64,000 bases of DNA, taken from contig JAAOMT010000436.1 in NCBI GenBank assembly GCA_016748015.1, positions 1,626,412 to 1,690,411 of the forward strand, read 5' to 3'. Shown one piece after another: positions 648 through 64,000 of this stretch. Made by a program: the position numbers and the translations under genes. The stretch comes from Geosiphon pyriformis (taxonomy: Eukaryota > Glomeromycota > Glomeromycetes > Archaeosporales > Geosiphonaceae). The stretch's first letter is position 1. Every line of letters begins with the position of its first letter. The notes under the pieces were generated by a model. That model did not search any database. It saw nothing but the letters and a program-made list of their open reading frames with translations, and was not told the origin of the DNA.

Positions 648-2176
648 TTACTTAGAGTTACACTTCATAAGAGTTCCAAAATAGGGACCTTGATGACTCC
701 ACCAAAATCCTTTCCAATGTTTATTTATACAAATCTAAAAGATATAAAAATGTTTGGTTATTATTAAGAATATCATAAAAGGCAATACATTGTTTTTTCA
801 AAGATTCTAAAATTTTGAAATTATGTTAATATTATTTTCAAAATAATCTTACCCCACTCTCCAATTCCCCTTCAACAGGCAAACACCTAGAAATTTTGGA
901 GCCTTCAATCCAATACTCCTCCCCGAAATGAGAATAATAATTACTCCAATGGTTTTTCAACAGATCTCTATAAGTTGGGGATCTTGGGATATCATCAATC
1001 CCATTTGTAGCTCGTATAAGCTTAACTTTTTCGTTAGCGTATTTTGCAAAGGGGATATCCCCAATTCTCGGACTTCCATAGGTATAAACATTAGGTTTTG
1101 GTAGATTAGGTAGTCGAACGAGAAGTGCTGCTAGTGTCGCGAATACTTTGAAGAAAACATTGGAAATGAAGAAAATTTTAAATCCTTTAATTTTGACAAT
1201 AACAATAACAATAACAATAACAATAACAATAACAATAAAAATAACAATAACAATAACAATAACAATAACAATAACAATAACAATAACAATAAAAATAGCA
1301 ATAACAACAAATAAACGATAATAATAATAATGAGCATTAAAATTAAAAAAGACCTACCTCCTCCGAAACTATAGCCAACAAATACAAGTTCTTTCAAAGG
1401 GTTTATTTCACTTTTCCAGGTTATAAAAAGTTTGAGGAAGGCATCTCTCATTTTAACAAACTGCAAATACCAGCCTTTGTTGACTCGGAATTTTTGAGCA
1501 TCAAATGTAACATCTATAAATGCTTTATGTTTAAGAAATTCTTTAGCCTTTTCTTCGTTCGCAGCAAATGATATTACAAGTTTGTTTTTGAGGACTTTCC
1601 GAGTAACTTTTGACAAAAAAAAACAAAAAAAAAACAAACAATTTTAATTAATTTTAATATTCAAACTAAGCATTAAAGTTTGAAATTCAGAACTTAAAAA
1701 TAAAAAATATACCATAAACTTCATCAGAAAGTATAATCCTTTGATCACATATTGCTTGCTTTGCTAATACCGCATACGAACGAAGGTTCTCTATATCACG
1801 GTAGTATGTGTTACCAGTTTCGTCATAAATTTGAACGTCTGTTGGAATTTCAGGTTGATCGGCTACTCCTGCAAGTAACTGATCACTGCTTGAAGACGAT
1901 AATTCATTAGCCCCAACTATATTTGCCATATTGTATACTTGATTTGTATCTGATAACTCATTTTCTGATTTGTTCGAATCAAAATTTTCGAAAGGCAATT
2001 TATCAAGAGAGGATGACAATTCTCCATCACCTAGATTTGAATAGGTATTAATTGCCGTGGAAAACTCGTAATCAGTACCAGTATTATCAGAGGATAGGTC
2101 TAATTCTTCGGGAGTCACATTTATATTTCCAGATTCAGCTTTAATGTCAGGAATATTCTCAAGGACTGTTGTTGAT

Positions 2177-2225
<49 letters not shown>

Positions 2226-2373
2226 CAATATTGAAATCATATGAAGAAGCCGTATTAGAAACTTGGGGATCTGTTTCCAAATCTATTGGTTTGCTATTGA
2301 CTTGAAAATTGACGAGAAAACTCAAAGCGTAAGACGCTAAAAAAATGTAAAATATTCTAAATTCTAAATACAT
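648..2373 (-). CDS. Gene A: secreted class 3 lipase-like protein that keeps the serine nucleophile
   Basis: Exons on the minus strand are 2373-1713, 1606-1358, 1145-853 and about 735-658/648. The first three joins are phase 1, phase 1 and phase 0, as in the paralogues. The protein starts with a cleavable-looking signal (FLASYALSFLVNF). A variable linker with 15 Asn follows, then KQAIC (the AYC position), the elbow VGYSFGG, YTYGSPRIGD, the Asp loop NGIDDIPR and FGEEYWI. By alignment with Rhizomucor lipase (S144, D203, H257) it has Ser and Asp. The His motif SHQGPYFG lies in the last exon, but in a frame that the only good acceptor does not give: splicing at 735 yields a shifted tail ending at 658, and the family frame ends at 648. 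So the C-terminus is either frameshifted or uses an acceptor I cannot see. This is the only copy here that could be a classical hydrolase, acting outside the cell. Confidence 0.75.
1201..1312. repeat. AACAAT-type microsatellite in intron 2 of gene A
   Basis: About 110 bp of nearly perfect aacaat repeats (ttattg on the coding strand). They sit just after the exon that ends in the nucleophile elbow and account for the greater length of this intron. Confidence 0.9.
2178..2226. repeat. ATT/AAT triplet repeat encoding poly-Asn in gene A
   Basis: About sixteen att triplets read as Asn codons on the minus strand, inside the variable linker of gene A between the signal peptide and the lipase domain. 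Confidence 0.9.
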
Positions 2374-4027: not shown

Positions 4028-5868
4028 CTAATCATCACCATCACACTTCCCCATCATAACCCCTAAAAAAGGCCCTTTATGATTCTCTCCTTGTAGACTT
4101 TTCGCAGAATTGGCGCAATTCTAAAGAGGGATTTCAAAATTTTTTAAATTTTCAATCCACGTTTTAGAATTCTAGTTTCTCCCCCCACTCCCCACTCCCC
4201 ACTCCCCTTTTTCAAAAAATTTAATAACACTTACAATAGACTCATGATTAAAATTCGGTGGACATTTATACAAATTTCCATCGTACGCTATCCAATACTC
4301 AATCCCGTGATGTTGATAAAACCAAGGATAAAATGATGTAGGGAACATCGAAAATTGATCAAAAAGACGAGTTACCCGAGAAATTGTCAATTTTTTTTGG
4401 TTGATTAACCGCCTTACGTACTTTCCAAAGATCATATCGCCAATTCGTGGACTACTATAAGTATAGACCTCTACTGGAATTTTGTTGGTCATTGATGATG
4501 AATTTTCTATGAAATGTATAGCTGTGAATTCTGCAAATGCTGAAATTAATTTTTGATAATGCCCATCATACTATTTAATATCTAACATTTGTAATTTTAA
4601 TGGATAAAATATTCACAAGAATTCTATTAAAGATTGCAAACCTCCACCGTATCCATGTCCTGTGAGGCAAATTTTGTAATCAGGATACTCTTTAATTATT
4701 CCTGATAAATAAAACATCAATATATCAACAGAATTTGCCCAAGTCTCATATAAATACTTATCCACGCGCCGTCCAAAAGAAATGTCCTTCGAAGAATTGA
4801 TACTAGCCCGTGGGTATTTAGTATAAGACGGTAACAATATTAACTGTTGATACCAAAGAGCTTCATTTCCTCTGAAATAAAGAATTATCTCTTTTGCTTC
4901 TTTATCTTTCATAATTTTTGCTGGTGTTTCGAGATGAATCATTTAATATTTGAAGAGATGCAAGAAAAAGGCAGGCATGAAAATTTCGAAAATTGAAAAC
5001 CTTGAAAATCTTGTAAATCAACATCCATGTTTTGACAATAAGCTAAATTTGAAAATTTTGCAAATCGCTTCAATCTTCCTAAAAAATTTGTATCTACTAC
5101 TTTCTTGACGTTATCCGGTAACGGTGACGAGCTTGGGAAACTTAATGGACTGTCAACATCTCCTTTTAAAGAATTTAATGGATCATAAGCTATTTCTAAA
5201 TAGGATATTCCCATTTCATCGTTATGTCGATTGTCTTTGGATTGTTTAAGAATTTTGTTGTTTTCAAAGTCAACTGAATATGATTTAAAATGTTGGTTCG
5301 GTTGAAAATCTTTATCAAGAGGTTGATAATAATAGGGCAAAGTAAACAAGGGTTTCTGTTGAATCCGGTTGTTTATTAATTGATTGTTAACAATTTGTAA
5401 ATTTTTCTCGCTGAACAACTGCTCAATGTTATTGTTTAAAACTAAATTTGAGTTATATATCTCGTCCTCTTTAGGGATATAAGGGACAAGAGTATCTGCC
5501 TCTGATTCCAAATTCCAGGAACAGGCACAAAATTTAATAATATTGAAAGGCCATTGATCTCTAAACAATTTGTTGTCAACTTTTTTAGGGGATTCACGAG
5601 CTAAAAGTTTTTGGAATTCAGTTTCAGTTTTTTTTATGGTTTTGTTGAATTTTTTGTCCATATTAAATGCGGTTTGAAGAGGTAAGCTAGAAATATGGGA
5701 CTCTTCTGACATTCCAAGACACAAAAATTTCCCGAGAATGCAGAATATAATCATAGAAAATAAAAAAAAATATAAAGCTGGAGAGTTATAAAAGTGGAAT
5801 CGAGAAGGATATCTAAGATTCAACATTTTGCAACAGTGAAATCGAGAAGAATATCTAAGATTTAACAT
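4028..5868 (-). CDS. Gene B: membrane-anchored lipase-like protein, nucleophile Ser replaced by Gly
   Basis: Exons on the minus strand are 5868-5001, 4920-4642, 4539-4235 and 4120-4028, with phases 1, 1 and 0, encoding 514 aa. The first junction (weak donor caag/gttttc) is the least certain. After a short tandem-like duplication at the N-terminus (MLNLRYSSRFH and MLNLRYPSRFH) comes a hydrophobic segment at about residues 31-50, which fits a signal anchor. A long low-identity linker leads to NLAYC, the oxyanion strand LYFRGNEALW, the elbow TGHGYGG, YTYSSPRIGD, the Asp loop RLFDQFSMFP and HHGIEYWI. The last exon carries NHKGPFLGVMMGKC. In Rhizomucor lipase the elbow is GHSLGG with Ser as nucleophile; here the codon is GGA, Gly. 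Asp, C-terminal His and the AYC and GKC cysteines (the equivalent of a known disulfide) remain. Classical serine hydrolysis is therefore not expected. Confidence 0.82.
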
Positions 5869-8125: not shown

Positions 8126-9674
8126 ATGGCAAATACTGGTAAAGGTAAACGATTTCGGCCATCAGCAAGCGTCAAATCAAAAGCATTATCCTTGTCTTTT
8201 TTAATCGTTTTCTTACTTTACTTTTTCGCTATTCTCTTATCAAAAATTCAAAATAAACGTCTCACTCGGAACATTGATACTAAAAATGATTCAACTCAAA
8301 TTTTTCAAAGAACCCCTCCTCTTCGCACTCTTGTTTCGAATTCTTCAATCAATTATCAGCTTAAGTCAATATCTCCATTTCTATATGTAAAGCTACGACG
8401 ACATAACTCAAGGAATTTACCATCTAATTCTTCTGGATCAAACTCAAATCTGCCAAGAACCCATCCGATGAAACAACCATTTCCTATAAGTTACAATCTT
8501 GAAGCTTTTTTTCGTCAAATGGCGACGTTTGCTAATATGGCCTATTGCTGCCCTAATAATGGGGTGGGAAAGTTTGTTACGCGAGGTGATGTAAAAGGTA
8601 TTAATTGAATGTTTAAAGATTTATTTCTAACTAGAGATCATACAATCCAAATCTTTCTAACAAAAAAATAATTTTCATCTAAAAATTAAACCCTATAGCT
8701 GACGTAATATTAGATCAAAAAGAGAATTTTATTGTGGCAATTTTCAAAGGACCACTACTATCTAAATCACAATGGGAAAAACGTGAAATTGTGATGGTTC
8801 CATATAACGTATTGGGGAAACCAAAAAATTCTCTTATACGTGTAGACAAGATATGGTATGAAGATGTGATGTCAATGCGTTCTGAAATGTTTACAAAAAT
8901 AGAAAGGGGAGTTCGTTTGACACCTGAGAGACGTAGGTTATTGTTTGTCGGACATGGTGTTGGTGGTGGTAGGTCTTTTTAAATGTAACAAAAATTTTTG
9001 TAATATTGCGAAATCTCAAATAATTTTTGATTTTAGAATAATAAAACTTTTTTTTTCAGCATATGCGGCAATAGCTGGCCTTACCTGGCTAATTGAAAGG
9101 GATATTGACCGTAACTATCGATCGACAAAAGGAGATAAATTGGACATTTTCACAAAAGTAATTACCTTTGGTGCACCTCGGTTTGGAAATGTTTGGCTGG
9201 CCCGTCTTATCAATAAATATAATGGAACTTTTGTAAGATTCACTTTTTTCAATGATCCGACACCCCTTTTTCCTCCGATTAAAAGTGGCAATGATATTTT
9301 ATCACATCATGAAACGGAATTGTGGATTCCAATGGATAATTGTGACTGCTCAAAAATATGGCTATGTGAAGGGTTTTTTAAGAAGTCAACTTTTGATGAA
9401 ACAGCTTCTAGTAAAAAAGAAGGTTTAGACGATAATCCCTTTCCAGAGGATATATTTTTTCCCTATGGTTACGAAGCGGGTGAAAATAAGGTGAATTATC
9501 TGTTTTATTTTAAGAACGTTCTAATTTGAAAAATTTAACTAAAAATTTTCAAACTACTTTTAGGAATGTAGCTCAGGTCAATCGATTGCCAATGTCCCTC
9601 CAAATTTTTTACATACAGGACCTTATTTTGATATTGTAATGAATGATTGTTCCATGTTTGATTTTGGTTTTTAA
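8126..9674 (+). CDS. Gene C: membrane-anchored lipase-like protein, nucleophile Ser replaced by Gly
   Basis: Exons are 8126-8597, 8699-8968, 9060-9490 and 9564-9674, with phases 1, 1 and 0, giving 427 aa ending in TAA. All introns have GT-AG ends; the second begins GTAGGT and ends in a T-rich tract plus CAG. A single hydrophobic helix lies at about residues 22-42 after a basic N-terminus, a type II anchor pattern. MAYCC, the strand VAIFKGPLL, the elbow VGHGVGG followed directly by AYAAIAGL, TFGAPRFGN, the Asp loop FFNDPTPLFPP and HHETELWI follow. The last exon has ECSSGQSI and FLHTGPYFDIVMNDC. The nucleophile codon is GGT. Asp and C-terminal His are kept. It is the first plus-strand member, so the array is not a simple head-to-tail tandem. 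Likely located at the cell surface; function unknown. Confidence 0.87.
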
Positions 9675-11224: not shown

Positions 11225-11267
<43 letters not shown>

Positions 11268-12145: not shown

Positions 12146-13761
12146 TTATTCCGCACAGATTCCCATCATGTGTTGAAAATATGGGCCGTTATGTGGTGCT
12201 GCACTTACAGAAAGTTTTGGTGTGTCGTTATCTTGAGATGAACCTGTGGATGAATATTGATTATTGCAATTCTAATTGCAAAAGTGAAGACGCAAGATTA
12301 ATTTTGAGATATATTAAAAATAATTACAATTGAAATAAATAAATAAAAAAAAACGGTTAACATACTGGATTCTCATCAATAATATAATGAGTTTCTCCTT
12401 GAATCGATTCTTCATGATACTCTCCAATACACTCAAAAACAAGCGGTGCCTCACATTCACAATATGGCATTATCCAAAACTCAGTACCAACATGCTTAAA
12501 TAATCTTTGATGATTTGGAGGCATTTGGACGACGTAATCATTTGCGTAGGTAATTCTAAAGACATTCAAAAACAGATCCACATGTTCGGCAAAAAATTTG
12601 TTTCCTATCCGGGGCATGCCGTAAGTATATACTTTTACGTTCCAATTATCAATGCCGATCCCTCGTTGTTCTTGTATGAATAGGCCCAATAAAACAGCAT
12701 ATACTAAAGAAAAAAATCATACTTCAAAAAAAAGCTGAATGCTGATTTTCGATAAAAATTTTTAAAAAAATTCCTTACCACCACCGATATCATGACCAGT
12801 TATTCGAAATTCGTGTATTTTATGCGTATGTGCGAGTATTGAAAGTTGCCTGATTATATGCCATCTTGTTTTTTGTATGTTGCTGAAAAAAATTCCAATA
12901 ACTTTTGCGTTTTTGACCTCTTCATATTGTACCATGTCGAATTTACTTAGGTACCATTTATGCTCATCAAATGGATTTCCTTTTATGTACACTATTACTT
13001 CGGTTGAGGTTTCGCTTCTATCTACGAAAGTCTCAACTTGATATTGATAGATAAATAAAATCATTAATAAATATATTGTCATTTCAAGAGTAATTGACAG
13101 AACATTAAATTTATAAAGTTCTTTTTTGATAAATACAATAAATTCCTTCGGCAACTTTTCCTCTACTCTCTCCGAGACAATAAGCTTTTTCAGCAAAACG
13201 AGCATATTTTTCGAATGGCATTAATAAATGTGGATATGTCACTAAAGTTTTATGGCTTTGATCATAAGTCTCGTAACCCATTGATAGTAAGTTTTTTGAG
13301 CTGAGAGAGTTTCTTTCAGCTAAATTATTCTTTGGTATCGAAATTGATCTTTTAGTTTTTCGCCTGTCAAAACTTTTGTCCAAGGAAGCAATAGATGTCG
13401 AAATAATAATATCTCCATTAACATTTAAAGTGCTTAGGGTATTATGAAGATTTTTTTCATGATTAAGGTTAGAATTTGGTAACTGAAATGTCTTTGTATA
13501 TTGGTTTTCAAAAATAAGATGAGAATTTTTAAACCGCATTAAGAAGTTAACATTTTGAAATCTGAAACCTGAAAGAAAAGTTATTGTCAAGATAAAAGTC
13601 AATATTGATAACAGAACGGCTCTTTTTTGAATTGGGTTTAATGATGACCATTTAGAAATGAGGATTATTGCAAATTGATTATTTTTAAATGATGATGATG
13701 ATGATGATGATGATGAAGGGAGAAAAAGATGATTCATGTGAAAATTATTTGATCGTGGCAT
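12146..13761 (-). CDS. Gene D: membrane-anchored lipase-like protein, nucleophile Ser replaced by Asp
   Basis: Exons on the minus strand are 13761-13167, 13036-12779, 12703-12366 and 12271-12146, with phases 1, 1 and 0, giving 438 aa. The first junction rests on the donor GAGAGA/GTAGAG and is less certain than the rest. A run of nine Ser near residue 20, encoded by a tca repeat, precedes a hydrophobic segment at about residues 45-62. EKAYC, VIVYIKGNPF, the elbow ITGHDIGG, YTYGMPRIGN, the Asp loop YANDYVVQMPP and KHVGTEFWI follow. The last exon ends with PHNGPYFQHMMGIC. The residue at the nucleophile position is Asp (codon GAT), unlike the Gly or Ala of the other copies. Asp and His of the triad remain. 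An Asp nucleophile is known in some alpha/beta-hydrolases (haloalkane dehalogenases, epoxide hydrolases), but in a lipase-3 frame this is only a possibility. Confidence 0.83.
13689..13716. repeat. GAT triplet repeat encoding poly-Ser in gene D
   Basis: About nine gat triplets, read as tca Ser codons on the minus strand within exon 1 of gene D. Confidence 0.85.
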
Positions 13762-15867: not shown

Positions 15868-17457
15868 TTAACTAAATGTACTACAATCCCCCATAGTGAT
15901 CCCAAAATATGGGCCAATATGAAAATAATTTGGGGGAATATGATCAATAGATTGCCCAGCGTTACATTCCTAAAATATTGAATTCAAAAATTTTTAAAGA
16001 TTAATGAATAATAAATTAAATTAAATTAAATTATTAACATTTTATCAACCTGATTTTCACCAGCTTCTATTCCAAATGGAAAAAAAGGATCATCTGGGAA
16101 TGGATTTTCGTCATTAATCCCTTTATCATTTCTGGTTTCATTTTTTAAAAATCCATCACAATAAAAAACTTCATAATTTTGAATTTTGTCTTTCACGGAA
16201 TCATTATAATTATCGGATTTTAAACATGAACAATCTTCAAAATCGAACCAAATTTCCAATTCATGATGCGATAAAATATCTTTCCCAGATGTCACTTTTG
16301 GGAAATGTGGCATTGCATCGTTCGTATGCGTTATTCTAGCTGTAGAAGTGAATTTATTTAAAAGACGAGCAAACCCAACGTTTCCAATTCTCGGTTGACC
16401 AAATGTTATAATTTTTGTTGGAATTCGAGGTAAGATTGGACCGAAAGGAAATAAAGATGTATCTTTCTCATATAACATTGCCCATAAGAGGCCAGAAATT
16501 GCTGCATATGCTGTAATATAATTAGATTAAGAAAATTTTATTATTTAAAATAAAAGTGATGAAAAAGATAAATTATCTTTTAAATATAAGTACCCACCAC
16601 CTCCAATACCATGCCCAACAAAAAATATTCCTTGAATTTGATTGTTTTTTCTAATTCCAGAAACAATGCTCGAAAATAATGCATTCCTCATTTTTTGTAC
16701 ATGTTCATACCATTCCCGTTCAACCTTGATCAATAAATTTGCTTTTTTACTTTTGATTGGAGTGAAAGGCACTAAGTTCGTTTCCCTTTTTTCCAAATGT
16801 GCTTTTGTAAGCTCCGCTCCTTTAAACATTGCTACTATAACGTTCCCATCTTGTACGTAAATTACTTCGGCTAAAATTTTTATTGGTTAGTTTACTGTAT
16901 TGTGATATAACGATTTTGAAGAGGAAAGTTGTATCTTTCAATTTTTCATTAGCATTGGTAACAGCTAATTTGATATGTATAACTTTAATACCAAATTATA
17001 CCAATACATCTTAAAAATAAAAATAAAAAAAGTATAAATTGCGCAATTTCTGATTACCTCTCACATCGTCTCGCTTCACAAATTTCCCAATTCCATTATC
17101 CGGATAACAATAAGCTAAATTAGAGTATCCAGCCATGCGCATAAAAAATGTGTTTAATTTCAAACTTTTTATATCAAGTTTTCTTTTTGGTGGATATCTT
17201 GAAAAATTATTTTGATGAAAAGATCGTTTCAAATTCAAAGAATTTTTATTATATAAATTATTTTGAGAAAGTCTTGAAAAGTTTGGGTATGAGTGTGAGA
17301 TCGTTGAGATAATAGATATTAAAGAACATATTAATATCCATGATATTAAAAAATATAAAAAAATTAATTGAGTTGGAAAGATTTTATAAATAGGTGAAAT
17401 TTTTGAAATCTGAAAGAATGGTCTCTTTTTTACCACTCTAAGCTTCTTTTGATTCAT
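15868..17457 (-). CDS. Gene E: membrane-anchored lipase-like protein, nucleophile Ser replaced by Gly
   Basis: Exons on the minus strand are 17457-17058, 16870-16598, 16510-16050 and 15969-15868, with phases 1, 1 and 0, giving 411 aa. It is the closest partner of gene C in the window: both share YPDNGIGKFV/CPNNGVGKFV after AYC, the phrase SGKDILSHH or SGNDILSHH, and a long insert ending NPFPDDPFFPFG or NPFPEDIFFPYG. A basic start is followed by a hydrophobic helix at about residues 29-50. Core motifs are VAMFKGAEL, FVGHGIGG, TFGQPRIGN, the Asp loop HTNDAMPHFP and, in the last exon, FHIGPYFGITMGDC. The nucleophile codon is GGT. Asp, His and the terminal cysteine are intact. Confidence 0.87.
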
Positions 17458-20579: not shown

Positions 20580-21978
20580 TCAACTATAATATTCTTTACA
20601 ATCACCCATTGTAACACCAAAATAAGGGCCATTATGAAAGAGGCCATTTGAAACCTTTGTGATTGATTGTCCTGCATTGCACTCCTAAGAGAAACCATTT
20701 TTAGTTTTTATCCGTGAAAACCATTTAAGAAATATATGTAGTTAGAAGCAAAAGCTAACCATATTCGTTTCATATGTTCCTTCCTTCTGATTCGAATAAT
20801 TATTACAATCCCAGTAAGAATAGAAATCTTCGGGACATTCACAATTTTCAGATGGCTGAAGCCAGATTTCAGCACCAGAATGTTTCCACTTGATAGAATC
20901 ATCAGGAAATTGTGGGACGTAATCATTTCCATGGGTAACACGCAGATATAAAAGTGTTCGATCTATTAATGCACTAAGCTGGCTGTTTCCAATTTTTGGA
21001 GCTCCAAAAGTCAAAATCATTGACCATATTTTATCAAGACCTATCTCAGGCCAAAGATTTTTTTGCATGACTTTAGATGCTTCATAATGCCATAGAAGGC
21101 CAGTGATTAAGGCATATGCTATTTTTGAAAAAAGAAATATTCGTAATTTAAAATTTTACTTTTAGACTCAAGAGCAGAAGTATAGTATTTATTAACCTCC
21201 ACCAATCCCATGTCCGATGAAATAAATAGATTTAATGTTGGAATATGCGTGCAGATTATTTCGAATATCTTGTATTAAATTGGAAAATATGGATTCTATA
21301 TCCTGCAACCACTGCTGATTAACATGAACATATTCGTCAGGAAACGCAATTCCATCCACTCTCAATGTTACTTGTGCTTGATTTATAGAAGACCATTGGG
21401 CTTTAATCAATTTCTAAAAAATTTAATCAAAAATCTGATTATCTTTACCATGATTTGTATTTTAAAACACGTTATTCACGAAAGTTAAAAATAATTACTG
21501 GTCCGCCTAACAACACACACAATATGTCGTGATTAGGTTGCGGTAAAACTTTGGCTGAAGACCGAAAATTTAGGTTAATATGAAGTAAAACTGATTTTGA
21601 ATTCAACTCAATCTATTAAGTTTAAACTCTTTTTTTCAAACCAATGAAAGGTCTCTCGTTTGGGAAACAATATAAAGCATTTGCGAAAGGTGTAAAGATT
21701 TCAATAAAAGTCAAGATTCCTATTCGAGGTATCATTTTTGTTTTGACATATGATTTTGAGCGTTTAATAATTTGAATCATGTGTAAAGAAATTCCCAGTG
21801 AATTCTCCCAAACCGCCGAGGTTATGAAATTATAATTTATATTCTGTTTTTGAGAAATATTAAATCTTAAAGTTTCTCTGAAGGCTATCGAACTTTTAAG
21901 TTTCTCTAGAGGAGAAAAGTAAAAAGCTGATAATATAAAAATTAAGATTAAGATTTGATTTCTTCTCAACATATCCAA
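20580..21978 (-). CDS. Gene F: membrane-anchored lipase-like protein with an extra intron, Ser replaced by Gly
   Basis: Exons on the minus strand are 21978-21642, 21554-21499, 21413-21197, 21118-20760 and 20684-20580, with phases 1, 0, 1 and 0, giving 357 aa. The second exon has only 56 nt and encodes the oxyanion strand ending LLGGP. The extra intron after GGP defines a five-exon subfamily (F, H, K, L, N). An N-terminal helix at residues 7-22 is a signal anchor. ANALYC, FIGHGIGG, LTFGAPKIGN, the Asp loop HGNDYVPQFP, KHSGAEIW and, in the last exon, ECNAGQSI and FHNGPYFGVTMGDC follow. The nucleophile codon is GGG. The natural stop is TGA, which shows that TGA is a stop codon in this genome. 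It is a close paralogue of L and N, including intron and flanking sequence. Confidence 0.87.
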
Positions 21979-30257: not shown

Positions 30258-30296
<39 letters not shown>

Positions 30297-32420: not shown

Positions 32421-33565
32421 AACTGTTGCTTATTTTTTCGAAATATAAAATTTTTTTGTAAGTAGATTTGTAAAAAAACCCATAATATTATATTTTTTTC
32501 AATACAAATCTCTAACAAATAAATAGATATAGGTCTTGACTGATTTTGTAAAAAACAATTTTCAAAATTGACAGGACAAGAAAAATTACAATTCATTCTA
32601 CTGATATGGATCATCTCAGGCCATATCTTACAATATTGAGACCTTGGAGATAAGTCAATTTACAAACAATGAAGTAACAATGGCAGCGAAGAAAAAGATT
32701 TGGAGTAATTCTATAGATTTCACCAGGTGTTTTAAGAAGAAAAAGGTTACTATGGCTGGTAATATTCATGTAATGAATATTCTAAATGTTAAATGGATTC
32801 CTTCTTGCTCCTATGGTTGCAAATATATTTTAAATTTATAAGTCGTCAATCTTTCAAAAACATTCTAGAAAATATTGTTCCTTTTTTATTAGTTTTAAAT
32901 TTTGATCTTTGCATTAAAATATTTCTTTAGTATCTTGGATTATTTTGGATAAAAAATTATTGTCCCATTTCGCCATATATTAAAATATTTGAATAGTTTA
33001 AACGGTTGTTTTAATTGAAAAAGTCTTTTTTTCAATTCCTAGGTGAATCGAAATTTCTCATTTTTGAAAAGGAACTTGACATTTTATATGCAAAGTTTTA
33101 ATGTTTCTCTTCACAATAGATATATTTTTTCTATAATAAAAGAAACATCAAATAAATATTCTTGGTTTTTATTAATTGCAAGCAAAAAATTGTAATTGAT
33201 AAAAATTTTAACAAATATTGGATATCCAATTTGAAATATTGAGATACTAAAAGTTTGATGAATTCAAAGGTTAATTCATAGTGCTCGTGGAGATTTCTTG
33301 GCAAATTTTTCATTTTAATAATACATAAAACAACCTATTATATGTTATGTTTAAAAAAGCTTCATTGAATGCTAGCATAAAGTATTTATATAATAGTTTA
33401 AGAAAAATAATTAGATTCAGTTATTTTTTCTATTTTTCCAAAACTTGAATGTTTAAATTTTATGAAAAATTTATAAAGAATCCCTTGAAAATGATAATTT
33501 TTATTTCTTAAAGGATATTATGAATACTTTTTTTAAAAACTTTTTTTATTTTCAATTTTACAAAA
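32421..33565. other. AT-rich spacer between genes G and H
   Basis: Small open frames here (for example at 32644-32841) have no recognisable motif. I see nothing supportable. Confidence 0.45.
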
Positions 33566-35011
33566 TCAAAAATTCAAAAGATTTTTACTACTACAATCAC
33601 CCATTTTAACATTGAAATAAGGACCATCATGGAAGAAATTATTCGAAACATTGCCGATTGATTGTCCTGCATTGCACTCCTAAAGAGAAGTTTTTTTTTT
33701 AAAATCTATTCTGTTTGAAAGTCATTTCTTTTTTTTTAAAAAAAAAACTTACCATATTCTCACTGGCAAATCCCTTAAGCCATTTTGTTCTTTGTGTGGT
33801 TTCAAGCACCCAATTATTACAATCCCATAATGAATATGTATCATCAGGACAATCGCAATTTTTCGATGGCTCAATCCAAATTTCAAAACCAAAATGTTTT
33901 CGTCCTTTTGAAGCCAGAGGAAAGTGTGGGACATAATCATTCCCATGGGTGATGCGATGATGTGTAATTAACCTGTTTGCCATTTCACTGAATTGGATAT
34001 TTCCAATTCTCGGAGCTCCAAATGTGACAACTTGTTCTCCCATTTCGCTCAAATTTACATCAGGCCAAAGATTTAAAGTATTAATTTTATATTTTTCATA
34101 ACACCATCTAATGCCAGCGATTGCAGCGTATGCTGGCATATTAGAGAAAGATAATAATAATTCAGATTTTTTTTTTATTAACTAAAAAACAAAATGATAT
34201 TATTTTCCAAACCTCCACCAAGAGCATGACCAACGAAAAAAATGTAAGTCATATCAGAATTATTTTTTAAATATGTTCGTATATTTTCTAATATTCTCGG
34301 AAGGGCAGATTCGATAGTTTTCGAGAATTGTTTAATAACACGAGCTTGACGGTAGTATACTGGAAAGCCTTCCACTCGAAATGTCACTTGTCTATCATTC
34401 AATTGCGGCCACCACATTTTTGTTAATTTCTAAAAAGGAAATAAATATATTAATTTGATGGATTATTGAAATATATTTCAGGAAATTAGAAATAATTACT
34501 GGTCCTGCAAAGTACACGATCAAAGCCTTCAAACCTTCTTCTGCTCTTCCGTTACTTATGAATTTGACTAAAGGAGAAAAAAATAATTTTACATCAAATT
34601 AATCTAAATCACTTATTTTTATTTGAAAAATTATCAACCATTTATGGGTCCCTTAAATGAAGGACAATACGCATCACTTGCTAAAACTGCCAACTGTTCA
34701 TAAAGCGGTAATAAATTTGCGACTGGTTCCATTAATTTTTTAGCACGTGATTTAGCTCGTTTTGTGATTCGATTGAATTGTAAAGGAACTTTGATTTGAT
34801 TTTTCCAATCAACTACAACAATTGGGAAACTGTGATTTACATCCTGTTTGTGGAACTTTTGAAGTTTTTGAATTTTTTGAGAATTTTTCCAGCATTTAGA
34901 ATTTTCATGCACCCAAAAGTGAAATGCGAAGGATATAAAAATTGAAAAAATAATTTTATTTCCCCATAAAAATTTGAATTTTCTTATACCAAGATCTATA
35001 AAAGAATTCAT
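33566..35011 (-). CDS. Gene H: membrane-anchored lipase-like protein, nucleophile Ser replaced by Ala
   Basis: Exons on the minus strand are 35011-34639, 34567-34500, 34429-34213, 34132-33753 and 33679-33566, with phases 1, 0, 1 and 0, giving 383 aa ending in TGA. It belongs to the five-exon subfamily. The anchor helix lies at about residues 17-33. SDAYC, VYFAGP, FVGHALGG followed by AYAAIAGI, TFGAPRIGN, the Asp loop HGNDYVPHFP, KHFGFEIW and a CDCPDD...WDC pair follow; the last exon has ECNAGQSI and FHDGPYFNVKMGDC. The elbow differs from the textbook GHSLGG by the Ser-to-Ala change alone (codon GCT), the same change used in the laboratory to inactivate serine hydrolases. All other signature residues are kept, which argues for a maintained protein rather than decay. 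Confidence 0.88.
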
Positions 35012-36363
35012 TATCTTCTTTTAATGATATAAAGTTTATTTGAGCTTGTTTATATAAATGTGTTTCATTATCGGAACTAAAGCTTATCAAAGTTTTATTA
35101 TAAAACCTGTACATTGTTTACTTTAATGGGAAAAATACATTCAGCCTTTGTTATTTTATTATTCATCAAATGTCGATATAAAAATGGGAGAGTTTCATAA
35201 CAAAATTTAAATTTTGTTATCAAATTTTAGTGGTCAGTAGGTTTTACCATGATCGATAAAAAAATGTTTATTAGACTGAAAAAAAAGGAAAATAACTTGC
35301 ATCTAAAAACATTCTAAAATTTTCAGTTTTAATCTCAGTTTACCATTATGAAAATTTATTTTTTATGACTGTGTTTTCAAAAATTATAATAATGTAATAA
35401 TTATTAGTTGTAATATTGAAAAAAATATCCATCATATAGAAGCCAATTATATTTTATTGGTTTTAGCAATAATACACACAATTATTTAATGATTCAATAC
35501 AAGTTTTAAAATTATCTGTGGAAATGTTATATCTTCATAAGTCATCAAATGAGATATATGCTGGTGTTTCTTCTGTTTTTGAAACCAAAAAAGCAAAATA
35601 ATCATTCAAAAATTATTTAGAAGAAATTTAGCGAAAAAAGAAATCTACTATAAATGGCATTATTTATTTTATTACAAATTCTAAAAAGTCTAGTTAAAAC
35701 TTTTAAAATGAAATTTAATTTTTAGGAGCTTCGATATTCATAAACGAATTTTAAAATATCAAAAGGTTTTCCTCAATTTTATAATTAAGTTCTTGAAATA
35801 TTTAATCTTTAGAGAAATTTTAAAACTAGAATTATTATATTTATTTAAAAATTACAAAAAAAATTGATAAAATTTTTGATTTTTTTATGAATAAATAAAC
35901 AAATAAGTAAAAGAATTTAATTCTTTTAATAATAACATTTGGTTTCATTAAACAAATAAAACTATAAATTAAAAAATAAATGATTTTTCATACATTTTAA
36001 CTTACAAAATTAGACTGATATTTTGATAAAGATTTTCTAAGTTGAAAAATTAAATGATATTTTGAGATCAAAAAACAATTTTTTAATATAATATTTAACC
36101 TGTTTATGGTTTACTTAATATAAGACTTTTTCATAATTTGTATATATAATGAAACAAAAATGTAATTTTATAATTGATAACATGTGTTTTCATTATATAT
36201 ATAATATATTTATATAATTATTAACATATTTTTAAACACTTTATATTATTATTCAATACATGTCAAAAGCATTAATGCAAAAATATTTTTGCAATTTTAT
36301 AAATTTACCATTTTATTAAGTCAAACATTATATCTCATAAAATTTTTAGCATCTATTTTTTTG

Positions 36364-36397
<34 letters not shown>

Positions 36398-50147: not shown

Positions 50148-51620
50148 TCAATTGTTCGTCATTGATGGACCGCAATTGCCCATTTCAATGTTAAAATAAG
50201 GACCATTATGAAAAAAGCTCTCTGAAACTTCGTTTATTGATTGACCAGCATTACACATCTAAAATCAAAGAAAGCCAACTTTTTAATGCATTTTTCAGAG
50301 GAATTTCTGAAAGCTCTTGATAAAACATAATTGATTACTGACCATATTTTCTTCGGAATAAATCCCATTAACCCATAAGTTTCTTTGAGTCTGTGAAAGT
50401 AAAGAATTATTGCAATCCCAATACACGTTTCGTTCATCAGAACAATCACAATCACCCAATGGCTCAATCCAAATTTCAACACCAGAATGTTTCCATCCCG
50501 TTGAAGCTGAAGGAAAATGTGGTACATGATCATTTCCATGGGTGAAGCGGAAAATTTTGATTGCGTTGTTTAAAAGAGAACTGAGTTGACGATTTCCAAC
50601 TCTCGGAGCTCCAAAAGTAAAAATTTCTTGTGCGATTCCTGTTAAATTAATATCAGGCCAAAATTTACCTATTTCGATTATTTTTCTTTCAAGTGCCCAC
50701 CTAAATCCAGCTATATAAGCATATGCTTTTACATTTAAATAGGTGTTTGATATTAGAAATATGATAGATCTTATTTAGAACCTTAAGAACAGAAAATATT
50801 TGGACAACCAACCTCCACCAAGAGCATGCCCGACAAAAGCAATTTCGTATGTTTTAGTTGCTTTTGGGAAGCGACTTAAAAAATCATAAATAGTTTCTTT
50901 TAAAATAGGAAATAACATTTCCACATCTTCTAATAATTGTGTTTCAACACGAGCTTCTGGGTCAAAACCGGGGTAACCTTCAAAACGAAATTGTACTTGA
51001 TTTGAATTTCTAGAAGCCCATTGTTTTTTCGTTAATTTCTAATAGGAAAAAAATAAAAATGATGATCATGAAAAGATTTAAAAGTTTAAAAGTAGTCAGA
51101 TAATTACTGGGCCTGCAAACATTATGACTAGAGCGCTATAATCAAGTGAATATGAGTAAAATTCAGCATGTACTAAGAAGAGAATTTTAAGGTTATGTTA
51201 AGTCAATTTTTTTAAGAAAAAATTTTCAACTTTCCTCTAAAATTATGAACCTTTTATTTGTAAACCTGGCACTTTTGAACCAACGTTATTAGAATTGTTG
51301 CAGTCAAGAAAATTTATTAAATATGCAATATTCGACATAATCACTAAAAGAGGGGCCCGAGATGGAATTTCAATCTTGGTATGTGTTGACGAGCGTTCTT
51401 GAATTTGATTGATTTTTGAATGAATGTTAGCTTCATTTATCCAATTAATAATAATAGGAGAGGTGTAGTTTATTTCCGGGTTTTTATATTTTTGAATTAC
51501 TTCTGAGCCTATCCACCTACTGCTGGGCCTTTCAAGCATAAAAAAATAAAAAATTGATGCCGTAAAAATTGCACCATTAATAATCTTGACTTTCCTAGGA
51601 ATATTGGATAAAGAACCCAT
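50148..51620 (-). CDS. Gene K: membrane-anchored lipase-like protein, nucleophile Ser replaced by Ala
   Basis: Exons on the minus strand are 51620-51251, 51172-51108, 51038-50813, 50725-50343 and 50258-50148, with phases 1, 0, 1 and 0, giving 384 aa ending in TGA. This is the five-exon layout. An anchor helix lies near residues 14-28. The AYC position reads NIAYL, so the N-terminal cysteine is lost or taken over by LDCNN a few residues on. VIMFAGP, FVGHALGG followed by AYAYIAGF, TFGAPRVGN, the Asp loop HGNDHVPHFP, KHSGVEIW and a CDCSDE...WDC pair follow. The last exon has MCNAGQSI and FFHNGPYFNIEMGNC. The nucleophile codon is GCT as in gene H, its closest relative among the intact copies. Confidence 0.87.
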
Positions 51621-54402: not shown

Positions 54403-55155
54403 TCAACCGTAATATTCTTTACAATCACCCATTATAACACCGAAATAAGGGCCATTATGGAAGAGGTCATCTGAAACCTCTGTGATTGATTGTCCTGCAT
54501 TGCACTCCTAAGAGAAAACATTTTTAGCATTTATTCGTTAAACTGTCCAAGAAATATATGTAGTTAGAAGTAAAAGCTAACCATATTCGTTTCATATGTT
54601 CGTTCCTCTGGATTCGATAAATTATTACAATCCCAGTAAAAATAGGAATCTTCGGAACAATCACAATTTTCAGATGGCTGAAGCCAGATTTCAACACCAG
54701 AATGTTTCCAATTCATAGAATCATCAGGAAAGTGTGGGACGTGATCATTTCCGTAAGTAACACGCAGATGTGTAGTTAATCGATCTATTAATGCACTAAG
54801 CTTGTTGTTTCCAATTTTTGGAGCTCCAAAAGTTAAAATCATTGAACGTATTTTATCAAGACCTATCCCAGGCCAAAGATTTTTTTGCCAAACTCTAGAT
54901 TGTTCAAATTTCCATAGAAGGCCAGTGATTAAGGCGTATGCTGTTTTTGAAAAAAATCAAATATTTGTAATTTAAAATTTACTTTTAGACTGAAGAGCAG
55001 AAACACAGTATTTATCAACCTCCACCAATTCCATGTCCGATGAAATAAATTGATTTAATGTTGGAGTGTAGACGCAGATTATTTCGAATATCTTGCATTA
55101 AATGGAAAAATATGGATTCTATATCCTGCAACAACTGCTGATTAACATGAACAGA
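54277..55155. repeat. Segmental duplication, copy 1 (second copy 63122 to window end)
   Basis: The stretch matches 63122-64000 at a constant offset of 8845 bp with only scattered substitutions, including introns and the 3' flank. The left edge is sharp at atgataatgatgaatatcag; sequence just outside differs. The right edge of the second copy is beyond the window. Confidence 0.92.
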
Positions 55156-55795
55156 TTTGTCAGGTAAATCAATTCCATTCGCTCTCAATGTTACTTGTGC
55201 TTGATTTATAGAAAACCATTGTGCTTTAGTCAATTTCTAAAAAAAATTATCAAATATCTGATTATCTTTACAAAAATTTGAGTTTTAAAACATATTATTT
55301 AAAGAAGTTAAAAATAATTACTGTTCCGCCTAACAATACACACAATATGTCGTAATTGGGTATCGGTAAAACTTTAGCTGAAGACCGAAAATTTAGGTTA
55401 ATATAAAGTAAAACTGATTTTGCATTCAACTCAATCTATCAAATTTAAATTTTTTTCAAACCAATGGATCCCCCTTTTCGCAAACAATATATAACATTTG
55501 CGAAAGGTGTATAGAGTTCAATATGAGTTAAGATTCCTGTTCGAGGTGTTATTTTTGTTTTGTTATAGAATAATGAGCGCTTAATAACTTGATTGATGTA
55601 TGAAGTAACTTCTGGTGAATTCTCCCAAACCGTTGAGGTTATAAAATTATAATTTACATTATGTTTTTGAGAAATATTAAATCTTAAAAGTTCTTTGAAG
55701 GCTACTGAACTTTTAAGTTTCTCTAGAGGAGAAAAGTACAAAGCTGATAATATGAGAATCAAGATTAAGATTTTATTTCTTCTCGACATATTCAA
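54403..55795 (-). CDS. Gene L: membrane-anchored lipase-like protein, Ser replaced by Gly; recent duplicate of N
   Basis: Exons on the minus strand are 55795-55462, 55377-55322, 55236-55020, 54940-54582 and 54507-54403, with phases 1, 0, 1 and 0, giving 356 aa ending in TGA. Exon lengths 2 to 5 (56, 217, 359 and 105 nt) are identical to gene F. Signal anchor at residues 7-22, ANVIYC, LLGGT, FIGHGIGG, LTFGAPKIGN, the Asp loop YGNDHVPHFP, KHSGVEIW, a CDCSED...WDC pair and, at the end, ECNAGQSI and FHNGPYFGVIMGDC. The nucleophile codon is GGA. Within the region shared with gene N the two copies keep a constant offset of 8845 bp, so there are no indels between them. Confidence 0.88.
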
Positions 55796-56545
55796 TTTAT
55801 TTATATTTGGATTTGAAGAAAAATTTATTGAGGGCTTGCTTACGCAAATTTATAGAATGAGGCCTATCTTGTATATAATAAAAATTCGATTATACTTTTA
55901 TCATATTATTTTCAAGCATCAAATGATTTTAGGCAAATATTTTTCGCAAAAAATACACAAATTTATTATAGTATCAATTTTATTCGTCTATCATCTCTAT
56001 AAATTCAATTATGGAATAGTAAATATTTTGTTTTCTCCCTGTATATTCTTCCGAAAATTAAATTTCTCGCGAGAATATTAAAAAATTATGTCCAATAATA
56101 ATAAAATCTATAGCGTCGAAATCACTTTTAATAATTAAAAATATCTTTTAAGAAGATTTAAACTATAATAATTAATTATAAAGATTATTAATATTAAGAC
56201 CCTTGGAATAATTTTCGGTATAAGAAAAAATTTAATAACCCATTTCTACTTAGCTACATCAAAAAAAAATTAGTTTATTTTTAACATGTCTTTATAATTT
56301 ACAATTTTTATTTAATTCCGGTACTTATATAAATTATGAAAAATGCGAAATTTCTTTATTCGAAGGCCAATTAATTTTTTTGCGCCTTTAGAACTTAAAG
56401 TCTTCTCTTTAAAATCTACTAATTAAGTTTTTTATTTTATGAAAATATAGTATATAGCTTAATAATTTTTTCCAAGTCTTTTCTAAACTCTAAAAATCTT
56501 TTACTATCACAAGAACCCGATCCTTTGAAATTTAACTCAAATTTA
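55796..56545. other. Shared upstream flank of genes L and F, divergent region to gene M
   Basis: Similar to the upstream flank of gene F up to about 56.49 kb (ttaataattttttccaa in both), then the similarity ends just before the open frame of gene M. Confidence 0.55.
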
Positions 56546-57997
56546 ATGATTTTAGCCTCAAATTATCAAAATAACAACTTACCTTCCACTCTTCTAAATC
56601 AAGTTATCCTGCGGAAACGAAATTACATACAACCAATATTAACAAGTCAACCGGAAAACTCGAAGACAAAGTTTTTAGTTACAAATCAAAACTTATTACA
56701 AGAATTTCAACGATTTGCTTATTATGCCCAGATCGCTTATTGCCTTGGAGAAGAGCATTCATTTGGTGATGGTAGTCAAATATACGGTTGTAATTTTCGT
56801 TTTGCTTTTAGAATTTCTAAAGTTCAAATTTAGCTGAATGCATATTTATTTTTAATTAAGTTCAAATAATAATCTGAAATTTTACTTTATAATTTGCTTT
56901 ACATGCTAGTTTAGCTCGAGCTATTCCAGATTCTACCACAAAACAAATTGTGGTTATATTTCGTGGAAATAAAGATCTATCTATGTTACAATGGCATAAA
57001 AGAAATAATGGGATGGTTAGATACGCGAACGTTTTTTTGGAAGGTAAGTGGAATGTATTTATAAGAATATTAAAAATTTTTAGTTTATACTTTATATTGA
57101 ATTGCTTTAATTTTTACTGGAATGAATATATTTCGAACTTATGTTACAAACAAATCTGCCAAATTGTTAATATTTAAGATAAAATTCTTCTTTTTTAAAG
57201 AGTTGATTTCTCGTTTTACTCAAATTTTCAACGTGCAGAAGAAAAACTGTTAAATATGATTTGGGAAGTAGTTGATCAATATCCTTATTATCCTGTTATT
57301 CTAACTGGGCACGGAATAGGTGGTGGTGAGTAAGTTTATTATCTGTATAATTGAAAAAAATTACGAGATTTAAAATCATTGTCAGAATTTATTCCATTTC
57401 AAATTGTAAACTGAATCAAGTTTTAAATTTGGTATACGCGACCTTTACGGCGCTCTCATTAAAAAAAGATACTTGGTATCATGACTCAATTGAGCCTTTG
57501 ATTTTATTTACCTATGGTCAACCCCGGATCGGAGATCGTCAATTTTCTATTCATGTAGAAAAAGAACTTCGATTCATCTATCGAATCACATATTTAGATG
57601 ATATTGTATCTCAAATGCCTCCGGTTCAACTTGGATTTCGGCATAATCATTGCGAGTATTGGGTCTCGCCAAGTTGTGGATGTACTGAAGAAGATAATCC
57701 AGATGTTTATTGTGTTTAGGGACGAGGAGTCCGGATAAACGTAAAGGTGTAGGGATCTTATCTGAACCCCAGGTATTCTTTATGATAGTTTATATTAAAA
57801 TCTGAATTAGTCTGATAATTTTATTTAAGGGATTCGTCGATAAATTGCATTTGGCTATTTTTATATCTCAAGGAATGTAATGCTGCGTTTCATACGTCAA
57901 TTCCAAATTTGCGAATCATTGGGGCATTTTTTAATCGATTGATGGGCAATGTCCATCGTTATCATCTAATCTCCCAATTGTGAATGCCGGGTTAGTT
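56546..57997 (+). pseudogene. Gene M: truncated and frameshifted lipase-like paralogue
   Basis: Exon-like blocks are 56546-56786, 56915-57043, 57203-57325 and 57421-57719, with phases 1, 1 and 1, giving 263 aa before TAG. It contains QIAYCLGEE, VVIFRGNKD, TGHGIGG, FTYGQPRIGD and the Asp loop YLDDIVSQMPP. It differs from the others: there is no anchor helix in front of ATG 56546; the intron after FLEG is in a unique place; the normal acceptor before VYATFTAL seems changed from AG to GG, so an upstream AG adds four residues; TAG comes early, although a frame two bases over continues CLGTRSPDKR; and the last exon remnant (from about 57875) reads ECNAAF and IIGAFFNRLMGN, with the catalytic His and terminal Cys lost. 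The ATG start is only the first available. A short expressed product cannot be excluded. Confidence 0.65.
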
Positions 57998-61236: not shown

Positions 61237-61585
61237 ATGAATACTTTAGCAACTACAGCTAATTTTTCTTCAAGATTTACTCTTCGAAAAATTGCGTTAT
61301 GGTAAGTCATGATCTACATAAATATTTGAATAAATTTTCAAATTTCAAACTTCTCACTTTTTTTGGTTTCACAGGCTCTCAGTCCCAATCCTAGGTGTAA
61401 CCGCTTACGCAACTTCAAAATCTCATTTAGGATTCCGTCTTGATGCACAATACGATAAAGCGGCACCATTAGATTTTACCAGACTAAAAACTCCACAGGA
61501 TATTGAGCAATTACGTGTCGAATGGATAAAACGAAATAATGGCTTGGGATTACGTGATGTATCGAGATCTTGTGGTGGAGTCTGA
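61237..61585 (+). CDS. Small single-pass membrane protein, possibly mitochondrial, two exons
   Basis: Exon 1 is 61237-61301 and exon 2 is 61375-61585, joined across an intron with GTAAGT donor and TTTCACAG acceptor, giving 91 aa ending in TGA. Both exons are clearly less AT-biased than the flanks. The N-terminus (about 20 residues, with Arg, Lys, Ser and Thr and no acids, MNTLATTANFSSRFTLRKI) resembles a mitochondrial presequence, followed by one hydrophobic helix (ALWLSVPILGVTAYA) and a soluble tail with KTPQDIEQLRVEWIKRNN, ending SCGGV. It is the best candidate for an ordinary housekeeping gene in the right part of the window. I do not recognise the family. Confidence 0.7.
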
Positions 61586-63247
61586 ATGATGAATTGAAAA
61601 AAATACATTAAAAAAATACCACTTTTGTCAATAAGATTCTAATATTATGGTGAAATGTTTATTTCTCAAATAATATTTTTTAGTTTCATTGAGTCAATGT
61701 TTTAAATATTCATCACGATATGCCTTTCTTCTTTGAAACTTACAAAGTTTTTATGTAACAATTATTAGGATTAAAACTTTGAAATTAACTATCCCGCATA
61801 TGCTAAAAAATTAAAAATTTTCATTTATACCTTTGTGTTACATCTCAGCTATTAAATTGTATATAACTACTTTGAAAAAGTTTATATTTTAGTTTACAAA
61901 AAAAGTTATATAAAATAAAAATCATTAAAGAAATATAGATTTTCATTGTGAGATTGATTACTAAAGAGTGCTAATTTACGATTTATGTTAGTATCAATTA
62001 TAAATATATGGTAAATCACAATTCTCTTGAATATATTATCTCTGTTTAAAAACATTTATCTTATATAAGCTACAAGATACAATTTTAAATTTGTCCACTT
62101 TTTTTTATCATTTTCAACACTGTGTTTTTCTGAACTTTTTTGAATGGTGGTAAAAGTTTTAAAAGAAAAGTAAACAATTATAAATAATATTTTTTAATTG
62201 AATTTATTATTAGTATATTTTTTATTTCAATACTTTAAAATTTTTTAATTAAATTAAAATTTAAACTACATAATATAATCATTATAACATAATAAAAAAT
62301 TAAAAAAAAAAATTATTATACACATTATTAAAAATACATTTTAAATTAAGAATTTTCTAAAATATTTATTAATATCAATATTTTCTAATTATATAATAAT
62401 AAAAATAGTTATTTTAAATTGTTTTATCAAATATAAAACAATTATAAATTTTTGAAACTTGTTTTCAATATTATAATTAATTAAAATTTCTAATTATTTT
62501 TGAAATATATATAAATTAGTTCTCATTTTTTTATTAATGTTTAATTCATTTTGTATAATTAAATAAATATTATTTTCCAAACTATTTTTTGTTAAATGTT
62601 GTTTTAAACTTAAATTTTAAAATTCTGTATTTAGCATTGTTCCTAATTAAAATAACACACTAACAAATACCCGAAAAATAAATTCAGACAATATAAATTT
62701 AATTAAAAAAATCTTTGCAAAAAAAAAAAAATTAAATCTGTAAAAAAATTCAGGATAATAATCAGGTTAATGATTGAGTTAAAAATCAAATTATTAATTA
62801 GATTAATGATTAAGTCAACAACTAATTCTAAAGATAGAATAGCTAAGTATGTAACGTTAACAGCTAATACATAATTCCGATAATTAAAATTAATTATTAT
62901 GTATAGAAAATGTAATAATTTTCAACTGTAACAATATAGTAATTCAATAGCTAACAGAGTTAAAAATTGTTAATTTACAAGTTGAATTTAAAAGTTAGCA
63001 TATATAATTATTACTTTATAAATCAAAAAAATCTGAAATAACATGGTTTTGGATTTTGTGATAAAAATTATGAATATCATAATATAAAATAAAAAACTAT
63101 GCCAATTTTTAATGTAAAAACATGATAATGATGAATATCAGAATTTTTCCCTTGTTATTGATTAGTTTTAGGGCAAATTGTACGGGCACTTTATTATTTG
63201 CTGAACATAACGGTATTTCGAGTAATATCGATTTCAATATATTTCCC
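61586..63247. other. AT-rich intergenic DNA with a diverged copy of the L/N 3' flank
   Basis: Mostly featureless A/T sequence. The part from about 62.76 to 63.02 kb resembles 53.55-53.78 kb next to gene L, and 63122-63247 is nearly identical to the flank of L. Confidence 0.5.
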
Positions 63248-64000
63248 TCAACCATAATATTCTTTACAATCACCCATTGTAACACCGAAATAAGGGCCAT
63301 TATGGAAGAGGTCATCTGAAACCTCTGTGATTGATTGTCCTGCATTGCACTCCTAAGAGAAAATATATTTAGCTTTCATTCGTTAAACTATTCAAAAAAT
63401 ATATGTAGTTAGAAGTAAAGGCAAACCATATTCGTTTCATATGTTCGTTCCTCTGGATTCGATATATTATTACAATCCCAGTAAAAATAGGGATCTTCGG
63501 GACATTCACAATTTTCAGATGGCTGAAGCCAGATTTCAACACCAGAATGTTTCCAATTCATAGAATCATCAGGAAAGTGCGGGACGTGATCATTTCCGTG
63601 AGTAACACGCAGATGTGTAGTTATTTGATCTATTAATGTACTAAGCTTGTTGTTTCCAATTTTTGGAGCTCCAAAAGTTAAAATCATTGAACGTATTTTA
63701 TCAAGACCTATCCCAGGCCAAAGATTTTTTTGCCAAACTCTAGATTGTTCAAATTTCCATAGAAGGCCAGTGATTAAGGCGTATGCTGTTTTTGAAAAAA
63801 ATCAAATATTTGTAATTTAAAATTTACTTTTAGACTGAAGAGCAGAAACACAGTATTTATCAACCTCCACCAATTCCATGTCCGATGAAATAAATTGATT
63901 TAATGTTGGAGTGTAGACGCAGATTATTTCGAATATCTTGCATTAAATGGAAAAATATGGATTCTATATCCTGCAACAACTGCTGATTAACATGAACAGA
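63122..64000. repeat. Segmental duplication, copy 2 (first copy from 54277)
   Basis: Partner of the gene L segment at a constant offset of 8845 bp; it continues past the window end. Confidence 0.92.
63248..64000 (-). CDS. Gene N: lipase-like protein, Ser replaced by Gly, cut by the window edge
   Basis: Visible exons on the minus strand are the 3' part of exon 3 (64000-63865), exon 4 (63785-63427) and exon 5 (63352-63248). The last two have the same lengths as in genes F and L. FIGHGIGG, LTFGAPKIGN, the Asp loop HGNDHVPHFP, KHSGVEIW, a CECPED...WDC pair and FHNGPYFGVTMGDC are seen. It is nearly identical to gene L in coding, intron and flanking sequence. All visible frames are intact. The donor after exon 4 reads ATG/GTTTGC instead of GTTAGC. 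The anchor exon lies outside the window. Confidence 0.87.

Follow-up and report, generated by a model that had tools for sequence, protein, structure and literature searches.

What becomes of a lipase fold when its catalytic serine has been replaced in copy after copy? The question is raised by a 64,000-nucleotide stretch of the genome of the fungus Geosiphon pyriformis (hereafter the window; positions 1626412–1690411 of contig C330, in an assembly of 124.7 Mb and 406 contigs), which carries twelve lipase-like genes, A to H and K to N. Geosiphon belongs to the Glomeromycota (Archaeosporales) and houses Nostoc (PMC13315312, PMC8786786). Its genome holds several hundred lipase-like genes, most of them without the nucleophile and with the fold kept, whose products may now bind or recognise instead of digesting fat.

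The nucleophile elbow in the window and across the genome

We read all twelve window genes with our own spliced protein-to-DNA aligner. Every one of the twelve elbow residues given in an earlier note on this DNA (the original prediction) was re-read identically, with Ser replaced in 11 of the 12 genes and gene A the only one to carry it (GYSFGG), and the Asp of the triad was present in all twelve. The C-terminal His, which the prediction held to be kept in nearly all intact copies, was found in 10 of 12, as H-x-GPYF or a near form (for example HKGPFL in B); the 800 bases read for M showed no such motif in any of three frames, and in G this part is broken. The proposed alignment with class 3 lipases also held: against nine Protein Data Bank sequences, GHGVGG of gene C falls over GHSLGG and FFNDPTP over HTNDIVP, and a broader profile (A3), to which canonical lipases contribute, places the C-terminal His over that of the lipases.

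The replacement recurs across the family. A pattern consisting of the elbow and its splice site, with the nucleophile codon left free, matched 388 places in the genome and 13 in a reversed control (0 or 1 for each residue-specific pattern). The elbow is non-Ser in 341 of these, with Gly at 268 (GGT 110, GGA 119, GGC or GGG 39), Ala at 42 and other residues at 31, a number obtained by subtraction of which part must be background. Ser occupies 47 places (12%; AGY 42, TCN 5), so that Gly or Ala elbows, about 310, outnumber it by more than 6:1. A second count, of GPYFG followed by ATGGG, gave 170 places with none in the control, the triad position being His in 142, Asn in 16 and another residue in 12. 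Among the first 100 GPYFG places listed, a pattern elbow lay upstream in 64 (46 Gly, 9 Ser, 4 Ala, 5 other); the remaining 36 include any rarer-residue elbows beyond contig C207, where such elbows were unlisted. Because divergent copies escape both patterns, the family is probably larger than counted. Searching the genome with Lipase_3 gave at least 163 matches with 150 of 748 candidates scored, and the elbows of 30 loci taken without selection were 23 Gly, 3 Ala, 1 Ser and 3 other. Contamination as a source of the genes is argued against by their introns and by the 2.34-Mb length of the contig.

Two further features of the gene set were seen during these counts. Loci L034 and L035 (contig C96, 296163–299183 and 318116–321136) contain identical 243-codon coding stretches in opposite orientation about 22 kb apart, which would reflect either a very recent inverted duplication or an assembly artefact. 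Three NCBI models of 652–747 amino acids (P0016, P0020 and P0026) have two elbows each, representing either tandem lipase domains or fused gene models.

Changes at the active site go beyond the elbow. We tallied residues over the 87 non-Ser rows of a clade of 95 aligned rows (placed on the tree below). The Asp is present in 87 of 87, and the Cys residues said to be kept are indeed near-invariant at six columns (64/65 for the AYC Cys, then 86/87, 86/86, 87/87, 85/86 and 84/85 for the last). The triad His is retained in 67 of 84 rows, with Asn in 15, Lys in 1 and Ile in 1. The oxyanion residue, which follows F-x-G, is Ser or Thr in 110 of the 115 listed relatives without a Geosiphon label (4 gaps, 1 Ile); at the same position of the non-Ser rows we found Pro in 49, Lys in 13 and Ser or Thr in 1 of the 76 read, with 11 rows unreadable. 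Pro has no backbone NH to offer the oxyanion. The claim that just one residue had been lost therefore does not stand, since 75 of 76 read non-Ser rows have also changed at the oxyanion position and 15 of 84 have Asn for His. On these alignments, the nucleophile and the oxyanion residue are lost together while the Asp and the frame of the fold stayed. The exchange of His for Asn (NxGPYF; L024, L084, L088, L089, L091, P0009, P0034, P0041, P0050, P0051, P0053, P0056, P0057, P0060 and others), found in more than one branch, is read as a second step of loss. In gene A the counterpart of the FRGT oxyanion motif is FAAN, and its Ser elbow is therefore no proof of activity. Gly eases the backbone strain of a nucleophile elbow, which may explain why no residue other than Gly, Ala or Ser occupies the site in the 94 rows of the large clade that were read.

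The fold itself appears complete. All seven proteins scanned exceeded the Pfam Lipase_3 cut-off of 22, at 49.6–122.3 bits, and nothing in NCBIfam rose above any cut-off. The AlphaFold model of one protein, P0001, has a complete Rhizomucor-type class 3 lipase fold; an earlier structure model from 14 sequences was poor (predicted local distance difference test score, pLDDT, 64.9).

Around the window, pseudolipases, as we call the Gly/Ala type, are clustered over 123 kb or more (C330:1599915–1723280 by their elbow places), with Ser-elbow genes among them.

Lipase-like genes and other features of the 64,000-nucleotide window (window coordinates)
Feature	Position	Strand	Reading
Gene A	648..2373	-	Ser elbow GYSFGG (1356-1376), Asp, His (HQGPYFG); oxyanion region FAAN; Ser grade of tree
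Gene B	4040..5868	-	Gly elbow GHGYGG (4640-4660), Asp, His (HKGPFL); outside large Gly/Ala clade
Gene C	8126..9674	+	Complete, 4 exons, 427 aa; Gly elbow GHGVGG (8950-8970), Asp, His
Gene C N-terminus			Hydrophobic segment, RR site, then lipase domain
Gene D	12155..13761	-	Asp elbow GHDIGG, Asp, His (HNGPYF)
Gene E	15874..17457	-	Gly elbow GHGIGG (16596-16616), Asp, His; KR site
Gene F	20598..21972	-	Gly elbow GHGIGG (21195-21215), Asp, His
Two ORF pieces	25618-26490	+	Weak helix-turn-helix and DDE_3 matches below curated cut-offs; between lipase genes
Gene G	31210..32450 (ends approximate)	-	Broken copy: stops, frame changes; elbow GHVVGEG
Gene H	33590..35011	-	Ala elbow GHALGG (34211-34231), Asp, His; KR site 33 aa before AYC Cys
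Tandem repeat	36205-36655	+	Four-base unit; reads as MYVC repeats in three frames
Long ORF	41722-44934	+	Uninterrupted, 1070 aa, Ser/Asn/Pro-rich; no match in Pfam
Gene K	50172..51620	-	Ala elbow GHALGG (50811-50831), Asp, His
Gene L	54421..55789	-	Gly elbow GHGIGG (55018-55038), Asp, His; near-twin of N, close to F
Gene M	56423..57719 (both ends unsettled)	+	Gly elbow GHGIGG (57307-57327), Asp
Gene N	63265..64000	-	Gly elbow GHGIGG (63863-63883), Asp, His; cut by window end, continued in L073

The last 290 amino acids of gene C are identical (100%) to P0001, the Geosiphon pyriformis protein G9A89_015072, and gene E corresponds to P0002, G9A89_015074, whose database model runs into the last intron. 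Between the lipase genes, the two open reading frame (ORF) pieces are perhaps the remnant of a Tc1/mariner-like transposon, and the 1070-aa ORF sits in a stretch at 42–48 kb with raised G+C (0.37–0.40).

Distribution, elbow history and selection

At E≤1e-3 a Gly/Ala-type profile retrieved 67 proteins, of which the best 56 (E≤6.5e-36) are all from Geosiphon and the next stands at 3.8e-7; the method needs shared 5-residue words and its recall is incomplete. The 61 Geosiphon models from the Gly/Ala-type searches, a set drawn with Gly/Ala queries, have 56 Gly, 4 Ala and 1 unread elbow. Of the 992 proteins found with a Ser-type query, the best 120 include proteins of Glomus cerebriforme (46% identity), Funneliformis geosporum and Rhizophagus diaphanus. 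Among the listed relatives that do not carry the Geosiphon label, many of them unnamed metagenome proteins, all 115 have a Ser elbow. Separately, P0066, a Lipase_3 protein of the sedge Rhynchospora breviuscula, shows a GHGVGG elbow in an alignment of weak similarity (E 1.6e-5), which might be a plant case of independent loss.

We placed the elbow states on a rooted tree of 156 rows. It takes in 10 sequences from other fungi, P0077, 49 of the 61 Geosiphon models and 96 of the 111 spliced models, the other 15 of which were set aside as short or long-branched. The tree was built quickly, with the elbow column removed, and 59 of its 151 forks are weak and drawn open. The outermost Geosiphon genes form a grade of Ser genes with FRGT, within which 4 of the 10 other fungi also fall; next inward come Ser genes with other motifs, including gene A, with B and L086 as Gly exceptions. 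Further in lie a mixed clade with 31 rows (14 Gly, 12 Ser, 5 other) and the clade of 95 that includes C, E, F, H, K, L and N (73 Gly, 14 Ala, 7 Ser, 1 unread); outside this large clade, family elbows are also Phe, Tyr, Asp or Cys. Most Ser loci were fetched on purpose, so that tip frequencies are not natural, although the nesting is still informative. On this rooted tree Ser is the ancestral state of the elbow.

At least 15 changes between Ser and non-Ser are required. A history in which Ser was only lost and never regained is rejected on the inferred tree, many of whose forks are weak, a two-rate model being better by 2ΔlnL 81.8. The base of the 95-row clade has a probability of 0.89 of having been non-Ser; for the nodes that connect L032 with L036/L037 and L068/L070 with L097 the value is 0.9995. 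L032 has AGT beside GGT in its sisters, and L068 and L070 have TCA beside GCA in L097; these codons disfavour Ser kept from the ancestor, gene conversion being a possible alternative, and some Ser tips look regained. Among the 7 Ser rows of the 95-row clade, all three with a readable oxyanion position have Pro. Taken with the apparent regain, this means that Ser alone is no marker of an active enzyme.

We then measured ratios of non-synonymous to synonymous substitution (dN/dS, ω) by pairwise maximum likelihood in 28 pairs. Gly/Ala pairs gave 0.23–0.88, excluding one identical pair and the near-identical L and N (2.5, not significant). The ratio is 0.23 for H and K (2ΔlnL 42.9), 0.24 for L023 and L076 and 0.30 for L024 and L089. 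In seven pairs drawn from outside the canonical group, one or both members of which carry Ser, the range was 0.43–0.96; three canonical Ser pairs, in which dS is saturated, gave 0.09–0.11. Site models were self-written, with relative branch lengths fixed. In a group of 17 genes that includes F, H, K, L and N, M2a exceeded M1a by 42.6 over 237 codons and by 34.9 over 142 codons distant from gaps, where 6.6% of sites fall in a class with ω 3.1; a recent subset of 6 of these genes gave 9.9, which is significant. The same test gave 1.8 in the canonical Ser group and 2.0 in the mixed-clade group. The eight best sites of the ungapped run lie at 128, 155, 159, 163, 167, 216, 217 and 219 of P0001, in steps of four along helix 155–162 and beyond its end, and in loops, 216–219 being of middling model confidence. 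Judged by these codon models, there is diversifying selection at few positions of one 17-gene group, partly along one helix.

What the proteins may do

The explanation we favour begins with an ancestral class 3 lipase, with a Ser elbow and FRGT oxyanion motif common to other Glomeromycota, that would have been duplicated hundreds of times; in most copies the nucleophile would have become Gly or Ala and the oxyanion residue Pro or another. The proteins would be made, routed through the secretory pathway and secreted or tethered, no longer hydrolysing esters and acting by binding. In Rhizomucor-type pre-pro-lipases an N-terminal hydrophobic segment is followed by a dibasic site before the domain, and the presumed secretion here rests on the same arrangement; the dibasic site (KR or RR) is present in 21 of 28 genes with an N-terminal exon, some of these exons being incomplete. 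Their most likely task would be to bind or recognise variable partners, on the cell surface or at the Nostoc-enclosing membrane, with the frozen core as scaffold; the link to Nostoc comes from host biology only. We hold it very probable that the Gly/Ala members are non-hydrolytic and give a binding or recognition role roughly even chances; the combined reading, of a lipase-derived family of non-hydrolytic, secreted or tethered binding proteins, seems to us slightly favoured by the sequences at hand.

Several observations weigh on the other side. The hydrophobic segment passes the threshold in only 17 of the 28 genes with an N-terminal exon, several of them cut short. The Gly/Ala type was seen in these searches only in Geosiphon, which is weak evidence for its absence elsewhere, because the profile missed 4 of the 11 database proteins of its own query (P0006, P0010, P0014 and P0015). 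Among the window paralogues F, H, K, L and N, purifying selection is seen for H and K and not for the F–L–N pairs, which are not distinct from ω 1 (0.88 for F and L, 0.81 for F and N), and the lower ω of the canonical Ser pairs is partly age, their dS being saturated. In a 4-gene group the site test fell short of significance (4.5), and such tests can be inflated by gene conversion among adjacent copies. Finally, some chemistry could survive, given that the Asp never varies and the His is kept in most rows.

A bolder form of the favoured explanation, which we regard as speculative and rather doubtful, takes the family of about 300 genes for a hypervariable surface recognition repertoire derived from a secreted lipase, which would recognise and hold Nostoc or tell self from non-self as a fungal counterpart of cholinesterase-like adhesion molecules, the flips of the elbow between Gly, Ala and Ser reflecting a disused site.

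It is unlikely that the proteins are instead decoys or regulators of remaining active lipases, titrating inhibitors, chaperoning or pairing with active enzymes. Ser genes with FRGT do persist, Ser genes share the cluster, and a paralogue shielding an active enzyme is cited in PMC6549527, but the ratio of Gly/Ala to Ser places exceeds what titration would require, and the selected sites differ between paralogues where a decoy would be expected to keep the enzyme surface.

That the Gly/Ala members are still enzymes, using the His–Asp pair or another nucleophile for a different reaction, we think quite improbable. The retention of Asp and His agrees with it, as does the slow change of the segments that carry them, which rank among the slowest of the 17-gene group; the Asn that replaces His and the prevalence of Pro at the oxyanion position do not. 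An alternative Ser nucleophile was sought and none stood out among the 40 most conserved columns of the 87 non-Ser rows, and the Ser of a GQSI motif, partly conserved, is absent from P0014 and P0015.

Neutral expansion and decay, in which unequal crossing-over and drift would leave most copies functionless, is to our minds no more probable than continued catalysis. It would account for the broken gene G, for M without its His motif, for the F, L and N values together with those of L011 and L096 (0.74), L011 and L013 (0.71) and L040 and L048 (0.96), and for the 6 of 30 unselected loci without a model to the last Cys. The other 24 reach it, however, the pairs H and K, L023 and L076, and L024 and L089 stay at or below 0.30, the elbow of the large clade is confined to three residues, and a site class above 1 is unlike drift. 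The original argument for a new non-hydrolytic role rather than decay is supported in part and loses its premise of a single lost residue.

Lipid carriers or storage proteins, likened to insect yolk proteins, are the least probable, for although the full lipase fold is kept and Gly for Ser would leave room in the pocket, three selected positions lie along one helix and the remaining ones in loops.

Relation to known systems

Gly or Ala elbows thus outnumber Ser in a fungus that houses cyanobacteria inside its cells. If the proteins do act at the symbiotic interface, they would be the first to consider in asking how a fungus chooses and retains a phototroph inside its cells. The family is also a warning for annotation: by domain count the genome is lipase-rich, yet most of the class 3 genes counted cannot use the known mechanism. 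Literature searches found no mention of Geosiphon lipases among the titles and abstract openings listed; the genome paper (10.1016/j.cub.2021.01.058), beyond reach, could hold one.

The closest relatives are the secreted class 3 fungal lipases of the Rhizomucor/Thermomyces type (Pfam Lipase_3, PF01764), which are homologous and, by the P0001 model, share the fold; the Geosiphon family differs from them in its largely non-Ser elbows, in the replacement of most oxyanion Ser/Thr residues and in its hundreds of copies. Entomophthora muscae has a Lipase_3 expansion, 348 against a median of 66, regarded as digestive in PMC11105155, and unlike in the Geosiphon Gly/Ala type the elbow is Ser in 4 of 4 listed Entomophthora proteins. 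From the plant proteins EDS1, PAD4 and SAG101 the Gly/Ala type is set apart by having only Lipase_3 in 6 of 6 Pfam-scanned proteins, with no EP domain, by a putative secretory-type N-terminus in many genes, and again by copy number.

Pseudoenzyme families usually comprise few genes beside active parents. In leaf beetles, a digestive GH28 family includes inactive members under purifying selection with a silencing phenotype (PMC6549527); its fold is different and its genes far fewer, six having been silenced there. Cholinesterase-like adhesion molecules are likewise encoded by few genes, in animals, and neuroligin has Gly in place of the Ser. Neuroligin, neurotactin, gliotactin and glutactin are α/β hydrolase ectodomains without a functional triad that serve cell adhesion, neurotactin being tethered on its N-terminal face (PMC5943944). 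They belong to the carboxylesterase family, whereas the seven Geosiphon proteins scanned matched Lipase_3 and no carboxylesterase.

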